A stretch of 64,000 bases of DNA from Leuconostoc suionicum (GTDB lineage: Bacteria; Bacillota; Bacilli; Lactobacillales; Lactobacillaceae): positions 390,501 through 454,500 of the forward strand of contig NZ_CP015247.1 of NCBI RefSeq assembly GCF_001891125.1, read 5' to 3'. The position numbers and the translations under genes are program-made. The stretch's first letter is position 1; the number at the start of each line of letters is the position of its first letter. Positions 9,322-47,163 of this stretch are shown piece by piece. The notes below the pieces were generated by a model. It saw nothing but the letters and a program-made list of their open reading frames with translations, did not search any database and was not told the DNA's origin.

Positions 9322-9327
9322 AAAGAA

Positions 9328-9560
9328 GCATACGATGAATGACCCAGTAATTGTATTGATGCCCTCAGCGAACGGTGATTAGTGAAAGGCCGTGGCTAAA
9401 ATACGATGAAATTCAGTCAGGAGTATTGGTTTAATCGCCAACGGTTGTCTCCGTTATGGACACCAAAGCTGGATTTATCCAGGAATTTGGGTGGTACCAC
9501 GGTATTTAACGTCCCATGTAGTTCTTTTTTGGAAGAATTACATGGGGCTTTTAATTTGTA
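9328..9560 (+). ncRNA. T-box leader controlling pheST (phenylalanine)
   Basis: The T-box sequence GGGTGGTACCACG lies at 9489-9501. Upstream, stem I can be traced: TGTATT and AATACG pair to close the specifier loop, and UUC at 9412-9414 followed by A is the expected specifier for tRNA-Phe. The GTGAAAGGCC region fits the apical part of stem I. The terminator is GTCCCATGTAGTTCTT / AAGAATTACATGGGGC at about 9510-9548, followed by T. Uncharged tRNA-Phe should stabilise the antiterminator and allow pheS-pheT transcription. Confidence 0.93.
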
Positions 9561-41601: not shown

Positions 41602-42104
41602 AAATAAACTTAGTATTAGCACCAGAGCAACCCGTTTCGGAACTGTTAACATTACAAAGCGCTCAACCGCAAAATGTATTTTATTTAGGAAAAATTTCTC
41701 AACTGGCAGGGACAAATTTACTCATCATTGATGCACAGAATGTCGTTGCAAAATTTGCCCGTCCTATTGGATTTGAGAGTCGAGCAGTTATCGGACAATT
41801 TAAAGGGAACGTTGTTCATCAAATTGCATTTCAGGCTAAGGATAACAATGATGAGTTGATTGCAAAGTTATTAACTGGAAATGCCATTATGGCTCAAAAT
41901 GATAATGGTAAGTCAGAGTATATGATTTGGTCATTCTGGCCAACTCACGATGAATTAGCACGTTTTCTAGCTAGTGAAATCTATCAACAAATGCACGATT
42001 TGATGAAAAATCCGTATACTACAACTTATCAGCACGTGACTGATGCATCGCAGTTATCCTTGACGACCAAAATGCGTGACTTTGACAAGGAGTGGTGGGG
42101 ATAA
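41598..42104 (+). CDS. Unrecognised protein, last gene of the MoxR/VWA operon
   Basis: 168 residues. Overlaps the previous gene by four bases. No membrane segment or signal peptide. N-terminal half predicted alpha/beta (INLVLAPEQPV, NLLIIDAQNVVAKFARP), C-terminal part with SEYMIWSFWPTHDELARFLASEIYQQMHDL and an acidic aromatic end (FDKEWWG). I recognise no family. No clear terminator follows; the next strong promoter starts 54 bases later. Confidence 0.75.
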   Translation: MKINLVLAPEQPVSELLTLQSAQPQNVFYLGKISQLAGTNLLIIDAQNVVAKFARPIGFESRAVIGQFKGNVVHQIAFQAKDNNDELIAKLLTGNAIMAQNDNGKSEYMIWSFWPTHDELARFLASEIYQQMHDLMKNPYTTTYQHVTDASQLSLTTKMRDFDKEWWG

Positions 42105-42157: not shown

Positions 42158-42186
42158 TTGACAATGTTTTTACTGGCCTGTATGAT
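42158..42186 (+). promoter_or_regulatory. Strong promoter of the leucine-leader/liv operon
   Basis: TTGACA (42158-42163), 17 bases, TATGAT (42181-42186): consensus -35 and near-consensus -10. Confidence 0.9.
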
Positions 42187-42219
42187 ATTAGATATTAAGA
42201 AATCAGGAGGCAACACATC

Positions 42220-42282
42220 ATGCAAAACATGAATCAAAAACAAAACTCATCTCAAGCCCTCCTTCTCCTCCTCATGCTGTAG
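42220..42282 (+). CDS. Leucine-rich leader peptide (attenuator peptide)
   Basis: 20 codons: MQNMNQKQNSSQALLLLLML then TAG, with AGGAGG nine bases upstream. Five consecutive Leu codons (CTC CTT CTC CTC CTC, 42259-42273), an ATG, and a sixth Leu codon CTG directly before the stop. Six of the last seven codons are Leu, four of them the same CTC. This is the hallmark of a translated leader that senses leucyl-tRNA. Confidence 0.88.
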   Translation: MQNMNQKQNSSQALLLLLML

Positions 42283-42409
42283 TCATGATGAGGTTTTTCG
42301 CACTCATGACTAACTGGAATCAGTGTTCATGGGTGTTGAAATGATGAGTATAAATGCTGTCATTATTAACGATTAGTAACCCATGAATTTTGGTATTCAT
42401 GGGTTTTTT
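42280..42409 (+). promoter_or_regulatory. Transcription attenuator of the branched-chain amino-acid transporter operon
   Basis: Five segments pair in alternatives: A 42280-42288 (TAGTCATGA, starting with the leader stop codon) with B 42304-42312 (TCATGACTA); B' 42301-42309 with C 42327-42335; C 42326-42334 (TTCATGGGT) with D 42379-42387 (ACCCATGAA); D 42378-42388 with E 42395-42405 followed by T6, the terminator. A ribosome stalled on the Leu codons leaves A free, giving A:B and C:D (read-through). A ribosome at the stop masks A, giving B:C and D:E (termination). Confidence 0.85.
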
Positions 42410-42454
42410 GTTTGCGAAAAGAAGGAATTGAGAGAATAAATTGGAGAAGAAAGA

Positions 42455-43630
42455 ATGAAAAAAATTGTAATTGTCGGCGCTGCGTTTATTGTTGCTATTG
42501 TTGCTATCGTTGCATTTGGGATAGTCAATAAGTCTAGCAAAGCATCAACATCAAATGTAATCAAAATCGGGGGTGTCTTTGATACATCCGGTGACGCTTC
42601 CTCATATGGAAAGGCTGAGCAAGATGGTGCTAACTTTGCTATAAAGCAAATTAATGCTAATGGTGGTGTTAAAGTTAACGGAAAAAGCTATAAGTTTAAA
42701 ATCATTAACAAAGATGCTAAGACGGACAATACTGAAACCGCTTCGGTAACAAGTAGTTTGATTAACAAAGAAAAAGTCAGTGCTATCGTTGGTCCCGTGA
42801 TTACCTCTGGTGTTCAAGCAGCAGTGCCAGTGGCAACTCAAGGTAAGACGCCGATGATTTCACCAACTGCTGGTGCAGACAACATTACTTTGCAAAAGAA
42901 TGGGAATGTTCAACCTTACGTATTCCGCGCACAATACAAAAATTCTTTTATGGGTACAAAGATGGCACAATTTGCCACAGAGACTTTAAAAGCTAAAAAT
43001 ATTGTGATTTTCCAGGACAATTCTTCCGATTATGGTACTGGTATCACATCTGCATTTAAAAAAGCCTTTAAGGGTAACGTCGTAGATGTTGAATCTTATC
43101 AAGAAGGCACGAAAGATTTTCAAGCAGTTTTGACAAAAATTAAGGATAAAAAGTTTGACGCAATTGCAATCAACGGCTACTACACTGAGGGTGGTGCAAT
43201 TTTGAAGCAAATGCGTGATATGGGAATTGATGTGCCGGTTATTGGACCAGATGGCATTGGTGATCCTAAAACGGCTGAAATTGCGGGAAACAAAAATACA
43301 AGTAATGTTTATTACGCGGCACATTTCTCAGTTGATGCACCAGCTACTAAGGTTTCAGCACCATTCGCCAAAGCTTATAAAAAGGCTTATGGCAAGTATC
43401 CATCACAATTTACAGCTTTAGCTTATGATTCAGTTCGCATGATAAAAGCAGCTATTGAAAATGAAAATTCAACCAGCAAATCGGCAATTACTAAGGGATT
43501 GGCTAACTTGAAAAATTTTGATGGTGTAACTGGTAAGATGTCAATTGACAAAGACCACAATCCTGTCAAATCAATGGTTATGGTCGGCATGACTGATGGT
43601 AAAGAGTCATCTGCCGTAGTTGTTAAGTGA
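42455..43630 (+). CDS. livJ: Branched-chain amino-acid ABC transporter substrate-binding protein
   Basis: 391 residues of the Leu/Ile/Val-binding family (type I periplasmic-binding fold): IKIGGVFDTSGDASSYGKAEQDGANFAIKQIN, SAIVGPVITSGVQAAVPVA, FRAQYKNSFMGTKMAQF, GPDGIGDP. An N-terminal hydrophobic segment (about 3-24) is followed by SSKAS with no Cys, so there is no lipobox; it may be held by an uncleaved anchor or released. Start at 42455 with GGAGAAGAAAG upstream, 45 bases after the attenuator. First of five liv genes. Confidence 0.93.
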   Translation: MKKIVIVGAAFIVAIVAIVAFGIVNKSSKASTSNVIKIGGVFDTSGDASSYGKAEQDGANFAIKQINANGGVKVNGKSYKFKIINKDAKTDNTETASVTSSLINKEKVSAIVGPVITSGVQAAVPVATQGKTPMISPTAGADNITLQKNGNVQPYVFRAQYKNSFMGTKMAQFATETLKAKNIVIFQDNSSDYGTGITSAFKKAFKGNVVDVESYQEGTKDFQAVLTKIKDKKFDAIAINGYYTEGGAILKQMRDMGIDVPVIGPDGIGDPKTAEIAGNKNTSNVYYAAHFSVDAPATKVSAPFAKAYKKAYGKYPSQFTALAYDSVRMIKAAIENENSTSKSAITKGLANLKNFDGVTGKMSIDKDHNPVKSMVMVGMTDGKESSAVVVK

Positions 43631-43687: not shown

Positions 43688-44566
43688 ATGACTACTTTCA
43701 TTCAACAATTAATCAATGGTCTTATGCTAGGCAGTGTCTATGCGCTACTAGCTTTAGGCTATACAATGGTCTACGGTATTATTAAATTAATCAATTTTGC
43801 ACATGGTGATGTATACATGCTCGGTGCGTATTTTGGCTATTTTTTCATTAAGGTTTTACATTTAAATTTCTTTATAGCATTAATTCTCGCAATGGCAGTA
43901 AGCGCCATTATTGGTGTGGTCATTGAGTATATTGCCTATCGACCATTGCGTCATTCTCCAAGAATTGCAGTTCTTATCTCCGCTTTAGGCATCTCTTTTT
44001 TGTTAGAAAATGGCATGACTTATTTATATGGGTCAGATCAACGTTCATTTCCACAGGCGATTAAGACAGTACAATACCATTTTTATGGTATACAAGTTTC
44101 AAATATTCAGTTGATTATTGCTGTAACTTCAATAGTTTTGATGCTGTTATTGACTTACATTGTTAAAAATACAAAAATGGGTCGTGCGATGCGGGCAGTA
44201 TCTGCAGATCCAGATGCAGCTTCATTAATGGGTATCAACATTAATCACACAATTTCATTTACATTTGCAATTGGGTCAGCATTGGCGGCGGCTGGTGGCG
44301 TTTTGATTGGATTATATTATAACAGTATCGACCCATTGATGGGGATGACACCTGGGTTGAAAGCGTTTGTTGCTGCGGTTTTGGGCGGTATAGGCATTAT
44401 TCCAGGGGCAGCAGTAGGTGGTTGGCTAATCGGTGTATTGGAAACAATGGTTCAAGCGACAGCTTTTTCAGATTACAAAGATGCGATCGTGTATGCAATG
44501 TTGATTGTCATATTGCTTATTAAACCAACTGGTATTTTAGGGAAAAACAAGCGGGAGAAAGTTTGA
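43688..44566 (+). CDS. livH: Branched-chain amino-acid ABC transporter permease LivH
   Basis: 292 residues, eight or so helices. LIV permease signatures FIQQLINGLMLGSVYALLALGYTMVYGIIKLINFAHGD at the start and the coupling loop RAVSADPDAASLMGININHTISFTFAIGSALAAAGG. TTGAGGTT ribosome binding site. The stop TGA shares its A with the livM ATG. Confidence 0.95.
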   Translation: MTTFIQQLINGLMLGSVYALLALGYTMVYGIIKLINFAHGDVYMLGAYFGYFFIKVLHLNFFIALILAMAVSAIIGVVIEYIAYRPLRHSPRIAVLISALGISFLLENGMTYLYGSDQRSFPQAIKTVQYHFYGIQVSNIQLIIAVTSIVLMLLLTYIVKNTKMGRAMRAVSADPDAASLMGININHTISFTFAIGSALAAAGGVLIGLYYNSIDPLMGMTPGLKAFVAAVLGGIGIIPGAAVGGWLIGVLETMVQATAFSDYKDAIVYAMLIVILLIKPTGILGKNKREKV

Positions 44567-45540
44567 TGGATCAAGCGCATATTAAATACACGTTATCATG
44601 GGCATCTTTGGCTGCAATGGGGTTCATTTTGATATTTGTAGCTCAAATGGTTGGCCTTATTGGTCATTATGGCATCACAACGATTGTACTGATTGGCATT
44701 AATATCATTGCTGCACTAGGCCTTAATCTAGTAGTTGGTATTTCGGGGCAGTTTTCGTTAGGACACGCTGGATTTATGGCTATCGGTGCTTACGCGACAG
44801 CATTAGTTATGGAAGTTGTTCCTGGTATCATTGGCTTTATTTTGGGAATGGCTGCAGGTATCGTAGTCAGTGGCGTAATTGCTCTAATTGTTGGTATTCC
44901 AACATTGCGTTTACGTGGCGATTATTTGGCTATTGCGACATTAGGATTTGCTGAAATTATTCGAATTGTCATTATGAACTTGAAAATAACTAACGGACCA
45001 GCTGGTATTTTTGGCATCGAACCTTTTGTGAGTTGGCAATTAGTTTATATATTAGCAGTTATAACATTGATTATTGTGGTCAACTTTGTTCGTAGTATGC
45101 CTGGGCGAGCTATTATTGCCGTTCGTGATAATGAAATTGCTGCCGAATCCTTAGGAATTAATACAACTAAGTATAAGGTAATTGCTTTTGTGACTGGTGC
45201 ATTATTTGCTGCTATGGCTGGTAGCTTGCGTGCAAGTTTCATTCAATCTATTGCGCCTAAAGACTATGCTTTTATGCAAAGTATTATGATTTTAATCATT
45301 ATTGTAATCGGTGGGATTGGTTCAATGAGTGGAACAGTTGTGACAGCAATTGCGTTAGGTGTGTTAGACACAATGTTACAAAATTTTGGTTCCTTGCGTA
45401 TGGTCATCTACGCTGTTATTTTAATTGCTGTGATGCTGGTTAGACCTCAAGGTATTTTTGGTAGTCGAGAACTATCATTAAAGAAATGGTTATTTGATGA
45501 AGGAGACGGACATGGTTCAGACAATACTGAAAACGCGTGA
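44566..45540 (+). CDS. livM: Branched-chain amino-acid ABC transporter permease LivM
   Basis: 324 residues. Second permease: INIIAALGLNLVVGISGQFSLGHAGFMAIGAYATAL, IPTLRLRGDYLAIATLGFAEIIRI, AVRDNEIAAESLGINTTKYKVIAFVTGALFAAMAG. ATG 44566 (a TTG at 44563 is also in frame) with GGGAGAAAG upstream. Overlaps livG by 29 bases. Confidence 0.94.
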   Translation: MDQAHIKYTLSWASLAAMGFILIFVAQMVGLIGHYGITTIVLIGINIIAALGLNLVVGISGQFSLGHAGFMAIGAYATALVMEVVPGIIGFILGMAAGIVVSGVIALIVGIPTLRLRGDYLAIATLGFAEIIRIVIMNLKITNGPAGIFGIEPFVSWQLVYILAVITLIIVVNFVRSMPGRAIIAVRDNEIAAESLGINTTKYKVIAFVTGALFAAMAGSLRASFIQSIAPKDYAFMQSIMILIIIVIGGIGSMSGTVVTAIALGVLDTMLQNFGSLRMVIYAVILIAVMLVRPQGIFGSRELSLKKWLFDEGDGHGSDNTENA

Positions 45541-46297
45541 TTTAAGTATCCGTTTTGGAGGTGTAACTGCTGTTGATTGTGTTAATATTGAAGCTGCCGA
45601 AAATGAGTTAATTGGTTTAATTGGGCCAAATGGTGCGGGCAAAACCACATTATTTAATTTGCTGACGGGTGTATATTCACCTAGTGAGGGAGAAGTACTC
45701 CTGTTTGATGGGCAGCAGTTAGCTAATGTCAATCGTCAATCTCCCGCAAAGCGTGCTCGATTAGGTGTTGCGCGCACTTTTCAAAATATTCGCTTGTTTG
45801 GAAGTCGAACAGTATTAGAGAATGTTATGATTGCTATGAATTCTAGTACTCAGGCACATGTATTCAGTTCATTGTTTCGTTTACCTTCATTTTATAAAAA
45901 TGAAGAGCAACTAAAAAACGAGGCTCGTAAGCTGTTAAGTATTTTTGATATGCTTGAAGTACAGGATACGTTGGCAACAAACTTACCATATGGGCAACAA
46001 CGACGTTTAGAAATTGTTCGGGCATTGGCCACAAAACCTAAAATCTTATTTTTAGATGAGCCAGCAGCAGGTATGAATCCACAAGAAACGGCTGACTTAA
46101 CACGTCTAATTAAACAAGTTCAACAAGAGTTTAAGATGACCATTATTTTAATTGAACACGATATGAATCTTGTTATGGATGTCAGTGAGCGATTATATGT
46201 ATTAGAGTACGGTAAGTTATTAGCCAGTGGCACACCATTAGAAATACAGCAGAATGCCGATGTAATCCGTGCATATTTGGGAGAAAATAACGAATGA
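45512..46297 (+). CDS. livG: Branched-chain amino-acid ABC transporter ATPase LivG
   Basis: 261 residues. Walker A GPNGAGKTT, Q-loop FQNIRLF, signature variant LPYGQQRRLEIVRAL (LivG lacks the second Ser/Gly of LSGGQ), Walker B ILFLDEPAAGMNP, H-loop IEHDMNLVM. The long loop between the Q-loop and signature is typical of LivG. ATG 45512 with AAGGAG seven bases upstream. Confidence 0.95.
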   Translation: MVQTILKTRDLSIRFGGVTAVDCVNIEAAENELIGLIGPNGAGKTTLFNLLTGVYSPSEGEVLLFDGQQLANVNRQSPAKRARLGVARTFQNIRLFGSRTVLENVMIAMNSSTQAHVFSSLFRLPSFYKNEEQLKNEARKLLSIFDMLEVQDTLATNLPYGQQRRLEIVRALATKPKILFLDEPAAGMNPQETADLTRLIKQVQQEFKMTIILIEHDMNLVMDVSERLYVLEYGKLLASGTPLEIQQNADVIRAYLGENNE

Positions 46298-47007
46298 GTG
46301 TATTACTGACAGTTGAAAATTTAAACGTAAGTTATGGTGCTATTAAAGCGGTACAAGACGTTAACTTTGTGGTGAACAATAACGAAATCGTATCACTAAT
46401 TGGTGCTAATGGCGCTGGGAAAACTACAATTTTACGTACGATTTCAGGCTTAGAAAACCCCACTAAAGGACGTATTTTATTTGAAAATCAAAACCTATTA
46501 ACTATGAATTCAGAGCGAATTGTCTCAAGTGGAGTTGCTCAAGTGCCAGAAGGACGGCGCGTGTTTTCTGGCATGACTGTTCAAGAAAACCTACAGTTAG
46601 GTGCTTTTACTCGAAGCAAGGGCATTAACTTGAAAGATGAATATGCACTTATTTACGATCAGTTTCCAATTTTAAAGGAAAGACGTAATCAAGATGCGGC
46701 GACTTTATCTGGTGGCGAGCAACAAATGCTAGCCATGGGACGCGCATTAATGGCACAACCAAAATTATTATTGTTGGATGAACCTTCCATGGGCTTGGCA
46801 CCGCTATTTATTGAGAAAATTTTTGATATTATTAAAAATGTTAATGCACAAGGAATGACAGTATTAGTAATCGAACAAAATGCGAATCAAGCGCTAAAAA
46901 TTGCGGATCGCGGCTATGTTTTGGAAAGTGGAAAAATTACGATGACAGGTACGGGAGCAGATTTACTTGCATCAGATGACGTGCGCAAAGCATACTTAGG
47001 CGGTTGA
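46294..47007 (+). CDS. livF: Branched-chain amino-acid ABC transporter ATPase LivF
   Basis: 237 residues. Walker A GANGAGKTT, the LivF-specific VPEGRRVFSGMTVQENL, signature LSGGEQQMLAMGRALM, Walker B LLLLDEPSMGLAP, H-loop IEQNANQAL. Overlaps livG by four bases and completes the heteromeric importer. The TPP riboswitch unit begins about 40 bases downstream. Confidence 0.95.
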   Translation: MSVLLTVENLNVSYGAIKAVQDVNFVVNNNEIVSLIGANGAGKTTILRTISGLENPTKGRILFENQNLLTMNSERIVSSGVAQVPEGRRVFSGMTVQENLQLGAFTRSKGINLKDEYALIYDQFPILKERRNQDAATLSGGEQQMLAMGRALMAQPKLLLLDEPSMGLAPLFIEKIFDIIKNVNAQGMTVLVIEQNANQALKIADRGYVLESGKITMTGTGADLLASDDVRKAYLGG

Positions 47008-47048
47008 TTATTCGTATGGATTCAGGTACACTGAAGTAGAATTAAATA

Positions 47049-47122
47049 AATATCTGGGGTGCCCAAGCTGGCTGAGAGATACCCATTGAACCTGATTACG
47101 GTAATTCGTGCGAAGGAAGATT
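47049..47122 (+). ncRNA. TPP riboswitch (THI element)
   Basis: Conserved blocks in order: CTGGGGTGCCC, GGCTGAGAGATACCC, TGAACCTGATTACGGTAATTCGTGCGAAGGAAG. This is a complete THI box upstream of thiM-thiD-thiE. Thiamine pyrophosphate binding should favour the terminator at 47164. Confidence 0.96.
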
Positions 47123-47163
47123 ATAATAATGAACTATTCTAGTGTATAAATATGCCTATTTAG

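Follow-up and report, generated by a model that had tools for sequence, protein, structure and literature searches.

A putative leucine-sensing leader-peptide attenuator in front of the livJHMGF importer genes of Leuconostoc suionicum

Introduction

Leader-peptide attenuation is textbook knowledge for amino-acid biosynthesis. Attenuators of this type are known from the enterobacterial leu, ilv, trp and his operons (PMC6123439), and leucine-rich attenuators of branched-chain amino-acid biosynthesis occur in enterobacteria, Staphylococcus aureus and Listeria and have been predicted in Lactococcus, Streptococcus and Corynebacterium (PMC6123439, PMC5794164). For the leucine-rich attenuator peptide of the S. 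aureus ilv-leu operon, attenuation was inferred from mutants and reporters (PMC5794164). The nearest precedent for a transporter is the His-leader attenuator that serves the his operon, the hisZYX transporter genes or both in some Firmicutes (PMC9413887).

The locus described here lies in a 64,000-nucleotide stretch of DNA (the window; contig NZ_CP015247.1, positions 390,501 to 454,500) from the 2.05 Mb genome of L. suionicum, genus Leuconostoc, and an initial annotation, made from the sequence, had read it as a leucine attenuator of an importer. It resembles the enterobacterial attenuators in having codons for the regulated amino acid in the leader, mutually exclusive hairpins and an intrinsic terminator, but differs from them in that its target is an importer and in that a free first segment, left by a stalled ribosome, would lead to antitermination through a five-segment relay. 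With S. aureus ilv-leu (PMC5794164) it shares a leucine-rich leader in a Firmicute, although the S. aureus operon is biosynthetic and is also acted on by CodY, whereas the Leuconostoc genes encode an importer in a genome without CodY. Like the His-leaders, it may serve to regulate an ABC transporter for an amino acid in a lineage without the other known regulators of those genes; the His-leaders, however, sense histidine and are not known to include paralogues that differ in their amino-acid code (PMC9413887). A survey of the open-access literature found no report of attenuators on liv genes of Lactobacillales. The mechanism is of a known kind; what looks new is that it acts on an importer, that each leader is coded for a single amino acid and that its occurrence is linked to loss of CodY. 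The putative liv attenuator has an unusual target and belongs to a large, apparently undescribed class.

Results and discussion

The importer genes and the leader open reading frame

Five genes on the forward strand bear out the proposal that a complete livJHMGF set lies downstream: livJ, for a branched-chain amino-acid substrate-binding protein (42455-43630; Pfam Peripla_BP_6, 3.9e-58; NCBIfam PRK15404, 4.3e-43); the permease genes livH (43688-44566; PRK10740, 2.2e-75) and livM (44563-45540; PRK11301, 1.6e-55); and the ATPase genes livG (45512-46297; PRK11300, 1.8e-91) and livF (46294-47007; PRK11614, 1.5e-87). Each has its best family match in the Liv protein after which it is named, and all five NCBIfam scores lie below the strict cut-offs of those models. 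The nearest solved structure to LivJ is the pneumococcal branched-chain amino-acid-binding protein 4gnr (S. pneumoniae; 9.4e-79). Judged by these family matches, the genes in question would concern the same amino acid that the leader is proposed to sense. Directly behind livF there is an ordinary TPP riboswitch (47045-47135), followed by ORFs resembling thiM, thiD and thiE.

Upstream of livJ, the elements of the initial annotation were all found by direct reading of the forward strand. A sigma-70 type promoter (42158-42186) has TTGACA at 42158-42163 and TATGAT at 42181-42186, with a spacer of 17 and 11 of the 12 consensus positions matched. It is followed by the Shine-Dalgarno sequence AGGAGG (42205-42210) and by a 20-codon leader ORF, MQNMNQKQNSSQALLLLLML* (42220-42282), so that a short ORF with its own ribosome binding site (RBS) sits between promoter and structural gene. 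The peptide ends in ALLLLLML: six of its last seven codons specify leucine (CTC CTT CTC CTC CTC at 42259-42273 and CTG at 42277-42279), and four of the six are CTC, the rarest leucine codon in the genes of the window (4.8% of Leu codons). Such an ending is uncommon. Among the 138 RBS-preceded ORFs of 10-45 amino acids in the whole window, three carry, within seven residues near the C-terminus, at least five copies of a single branched-chain residue (Leu, Ile or Val), and the livJ leader alone has six.

There is complementarity between the run of Leu codons, CCTCCTTCTCCTCCTC, and the Shine-Dalgarno sequence of the leader itself (42205-42273), and the run also resembles the anti-Shine-Dalgarno sequence; its DNA is identical in the five species discussed below. 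When the isolated, ribosome-free leader is folded, pairing between the Shine-Dalgarno sequence and the CUCC-rich Leu codons has a probability of about 1 and may stop re-initiation of the leader.

Competing helices and the predicted response of the fold to ribosome position

Between the leader and livJ lie five segments, which form the competing A:B, B:C and C:D pairings put forward in the initial annotation together with a terminator, four exact helices in all. Segment A (UAGUCAUGA, 42280-42288) begins at the stop codon and pairs with segment B (42301-42312) at 42304-42312 (UCAUGACUA), with complementarity at nine of nine positions. B may alternatively use 42301-42309 to pair with 42327-42335 of segment C (42326-42335). 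C in turn has D (42378-42388) as its other partner, and 42326-42334 (UUCAUGGGU) and 42379-42387 (ACCCAUGAA) are again complementary at nine of nine positions. D is also the 5' arm of an intrinsic terminator ahead of the structural gene: 42378-42388 forms 11 bp with 42395-42405 of segment E, and TTTTTT completes the element (42395-42409; -14.4 kcal/mol). The region 42276-42412 folds at z = -4.5, and none of 200 shuffles was equally stable. From the terminator hairpin it is a further 49 bases to the start codon of livJ.

The RNA was folded from the leading edge of the ribosome, assumed to lie 15 bases downstream of the first base in the P site, to successive 3' ends, and the pairing shifted with the position of the ribosome. 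When the A site holds Leu14 or Leu16 and the transcript extends to 42390, where D has been made and E has not, A:B and C:D both form with probability 1.00, in agreement with the claim that a stalled ribosome lets A:B free C for D. With Leu18 in the A site the values are 0.67 and 0.74, and with the stop codon there B:C reaches 0.88 and C:D falls to 0.12. It is thus in silico that ribosome position decides between mutually exclusive antiterminator and terminator. The companion claim, that a ribosome at the stop codon yields the terminator, stands in so far as B:C prevails at 42390 and D:E finally wins, but in the same calculation C:D is favoured for a time, with a probability of 0.80 when the 3' end is at 42396, until D:E displaces it, so timing matters. 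The two best full-length structures are nearly equal in energy (A:B with C:D, -40.0 kcal/mol; B:C with D:E, -40.2 kcal/mol), which indicates a bistable design. At equilibrium the full-length RNA favours B:C with D:E even when A is free (B:C 0.95-0.99), and the ON state must therefore be trapped kinetically. Known attenuators likewise switch kinetically.

These parts, their complementarity, their conservation (below) and the switch in silico argue strongly that the locus is a ribosome-mediated transcription attenuator of the trp/leu/his type, and that expression of livJHMGF very probably depends on charged leucyl-tRNA. The leader ORF would be translated behind RNA polymerase. If leucyl-tRNA were scarce, the ribosome would stall at the rare CTC codons and leave A free to pair with B; C, released, would capture D, and the importer genes would be transcribed, the terminator being absent because C takes D before E is made. 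If leucyl-tRNA were plentiful, a ribosome at the stop codon would cover A, B would pair with C, D would be left for E, and transcription would be expected to stop at about 42409.

Conservation in Leuconostoc and a second leucine-rich leader

The leader element is present in five of 19 Leuconostoc species genomes. In these five species the amino-acid codon run near the end of the leader is kept, with the Leu codons identical down to their third positions, and segments A-E are near-invariant between variable flanks. Leaders that had lost the Leu run, or whose helices were broken, had been named as evidence that would count against attenuation; all five leader-bearing species keep both. The comparison of relatives that had been proposed bears out the conservation of the Leu codons, but the five leaders are so similar that they leave no room for covariation within the helices. 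The LivJ proteins of L. falkenbergense and L. pseudomesenteroides are 91% identical to that of L. suionicum, and in these two species similarity starts just upstream of the promoter and runs into livJ. Because the DNA farther upstream is unrelated, promoter, leader and livJ may be regarded as one unit. In nine other Leuconostoc species livJ immediately follows an unrelated membrane-protein gene and lacks the leader, a point that counts against the attenuator reading. In one Leuconostoc species (L009, genome G008) a TAA lies within livJ, and the gene may not be intact.

Ahead of the leuABCD genes of the same L. suionicum genome there is likewise a leader ORF rich in Leu, MRNQATVQINITNAALLLNLLRQTLAS, together with a strong terminator-like hairpin (minus strand; L222, 10408-10730; genome C1, about 1986400-1986730). 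LeuA at that locus is short, with 390 amino acids and without the end of the LeuA model.

Leaders before livJ in other Lactobacillales

Regions upstream of livJ were compared in Leuconostoc, in other Lactobacillaceae, in a second Lactobacillales family (f5) and in other families, a leader being scored as an RBS-preceded ORF with at least four identical branched-chain residues per six-residue stretch near the C-terminus. Leaders were found in 5 of 14 Leuconostoc regions, 41 of 93 from f5, 22 of 49 from other Lactobacillaceae and 0 of 8 from other families, where dinucleotide shuffles predict 0.1, 1.4, 0.4 and 0.1 and the antisense strand gave 0, 3, 0 and 0, respectively. Several other leaders of Lactobacillaceae, in which there are three or four Leu (as in ...NAALLLTKKDPVT), just miss the threshold or the start-site rule, and leader-like ORFs at -192/-180, close to livJ, in L051, L073 and L074 were set aside as doubtful. 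The proposed logic extends, with Leu, Ile or Val leaders, to many Lactobacillales livJ genes.

The initial proposal also holds beyond the genus, in that leaders of two families repeat the terminator and the alternative pairing. A scripted search found a terminator behind 52 leaders, 33 of which have an alternative upstream partner for its 5' arm at p <= 0.05, as judged against mononucleotide shuffles with related leaders counted as if independent. An alignment of 21 leaders from Lactobacillaceae shows that the eight-pair C:D core forms seven or eight of its pairs in 19 and six in the other two; pairs were counted by script because a plain alignment puts segment C one base out of place in part of the rows. 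C:D segments with their own partners form 133 Watson-Crick pairs, as against a mean of 127 with swapped partners, a value matched in 0.0005 of shuffles when relatedness is ignored.

Four f5 leaders (L025, L042, L027 and L068) have a common hairpin, similar to GGGTTCTACA..TGTAGGGTCC, right after the leader stop codon, and GGGCC downstream; this would be an alternative design within the same general type of attenuator. Among leaderless Lactobacillaceae livJ genes, seven (L132-L135, L137, L142 and L143) have a common promoter-region motif resembling TTATTAAAAACAAATTAGAAT just upstream of the start, possibly a binding site for a regulator.

The amino-acid code and LivJ phylogeny

Genomes of f5 often hold several livJ paralogues with differing leaders. 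Those of genome G028, for instance, read ...SLLLLLA, ...NIIIIIN, ...IVIIIID and ...NLLLLLAN, and some other f5 leaders have five or six Val. On a tree of the substrate-binding proteins the labels Leu, Ile and Val require eight changes, against 18.4 in shuffles (minimum 14); with the tree thinned to 26 rows, seven changes are needed against 11.2, and none of 300 shuffles was as low. One f5 clade, made up of five proteins each from a different genome, has Val leaders throughout, and another has Ile (one of them mixed). The leader may therefore name the substrate of its binding protein. The binding pocket lends this no clear support, as none of the residues inspected separates the Leu, Ile and Val groups. 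The Asp of the GPDG motif is invariant in 46 leaderless proteins and varies (H, N) in leader-bearing ones, these representing few clades.

In one Lactobacillaceae clade of LivJ all 18 sampled members have leaders, 17 of them with Leu and one with Ile. The 11 proteins of its sister clade, some of which are second copies from the same genomes, are without leaders; Leuconostoc LivJ forms a separate clade. This distribution makes repeated origin or capture of the leaders probable.

Alternative explanations

It is very improbable that the hairpin merely ends an upstream operon and that the Leu-rich ORF is due to chance. An unrelated gene does end at 42104 and a strong terminator does stand ahead of livJ, but the two are separated by the consensus promoter, which stands after the gene and before the hairpin; the similarity in L. 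falkenbergense and L. pseudomesenteroides runs from promoter to livJ across differing upstream DNA; and leader ORFs with antiterminator pairing recur in two families far above shuffles. Scarcely less remote is a stalling leader that works mainly through ribosome occupancy or through sequestration of the Shine-Dalgarno sequence, and so controls how often it is re-initiated or how stable the RNA is, while the terminator dampens expression to a fixed extent. The near-certain pairing of Shine-Dalgarno and Leu codons in the free leader is in keeping with it, but it leaves the mutually exclusive, near-invariant helices unexplained and has to contend with the distance of the livJ start codon from the hairpin.

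Control of livJ by a different regulator, whether T-box, riboswitch or CodY, is just as improbable as a chance ORF. T-box leaders too sense tRNA charging and control antitermination; they do so without a leader peptide. The genome has 23 T-box matches, but T-box RF00230 has no match at the livJ leader, and the only one in the window (9326-9519) is an ordinary case upstream of two ORFs resembling pheS and pheT. At gathering score no Rfam family matches the livJ leader, and a permissive scan gave only terminator-like chance matches there; for the wider leader class no Rfam family was found at gathering or permissive thresholds. CodY-box-like sequences were seen by eye upstream of livJ in some other Lactobacillales families, but CodY has no match in any of the 19 Leuconostoc genomes, that of L. 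suionicum included. Ribosome-mediated attenuation accordingly remains by far the preferred reading of the L. suionicum locus.

Loss of CodY and the control of branched-chain amino-acid uptake

CodY is likewise absent above cut-off from all 201 Lactobacillaceae genomes. Among 49 f5 genomes with livJ, one has both a leader and CodY, 15 have a leader without CodY, 22 have CodY without a leader and 11 have neither (Fisher p = 6e-5, with no correction for phylogeny), CodY being absent from 15 of the 16 leader-bearing genomes. The wider proposal, for which we regard the chances as evenly balanced, is that Lactobacillales lineages that lost CodY control branched-chain amino-acid uptake through an attenuator family in which the leader of each livJ paralogue is coded for a single amino acid, be it Leu, Ile or Val, and so labels what that binding protein imports.

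In L. suionicum, then, leader-peptide attenuation would govern uptake, and the leader before leuABCD suggests a single leucine regulon in Leuconostoc, embracing uptake and synthesis, without a protein regulator. If leader codons follow the substrate of the importer, the short ORF would be a genome-readable label of specificity for paralogous binding proteins, beyond what homology alone can give. In that case the wide set of Leu, Ile and Val leaders would also provide a natural test of how attenuators are gained, are lost and change their amino acid in the absence of the global regulator CodY.
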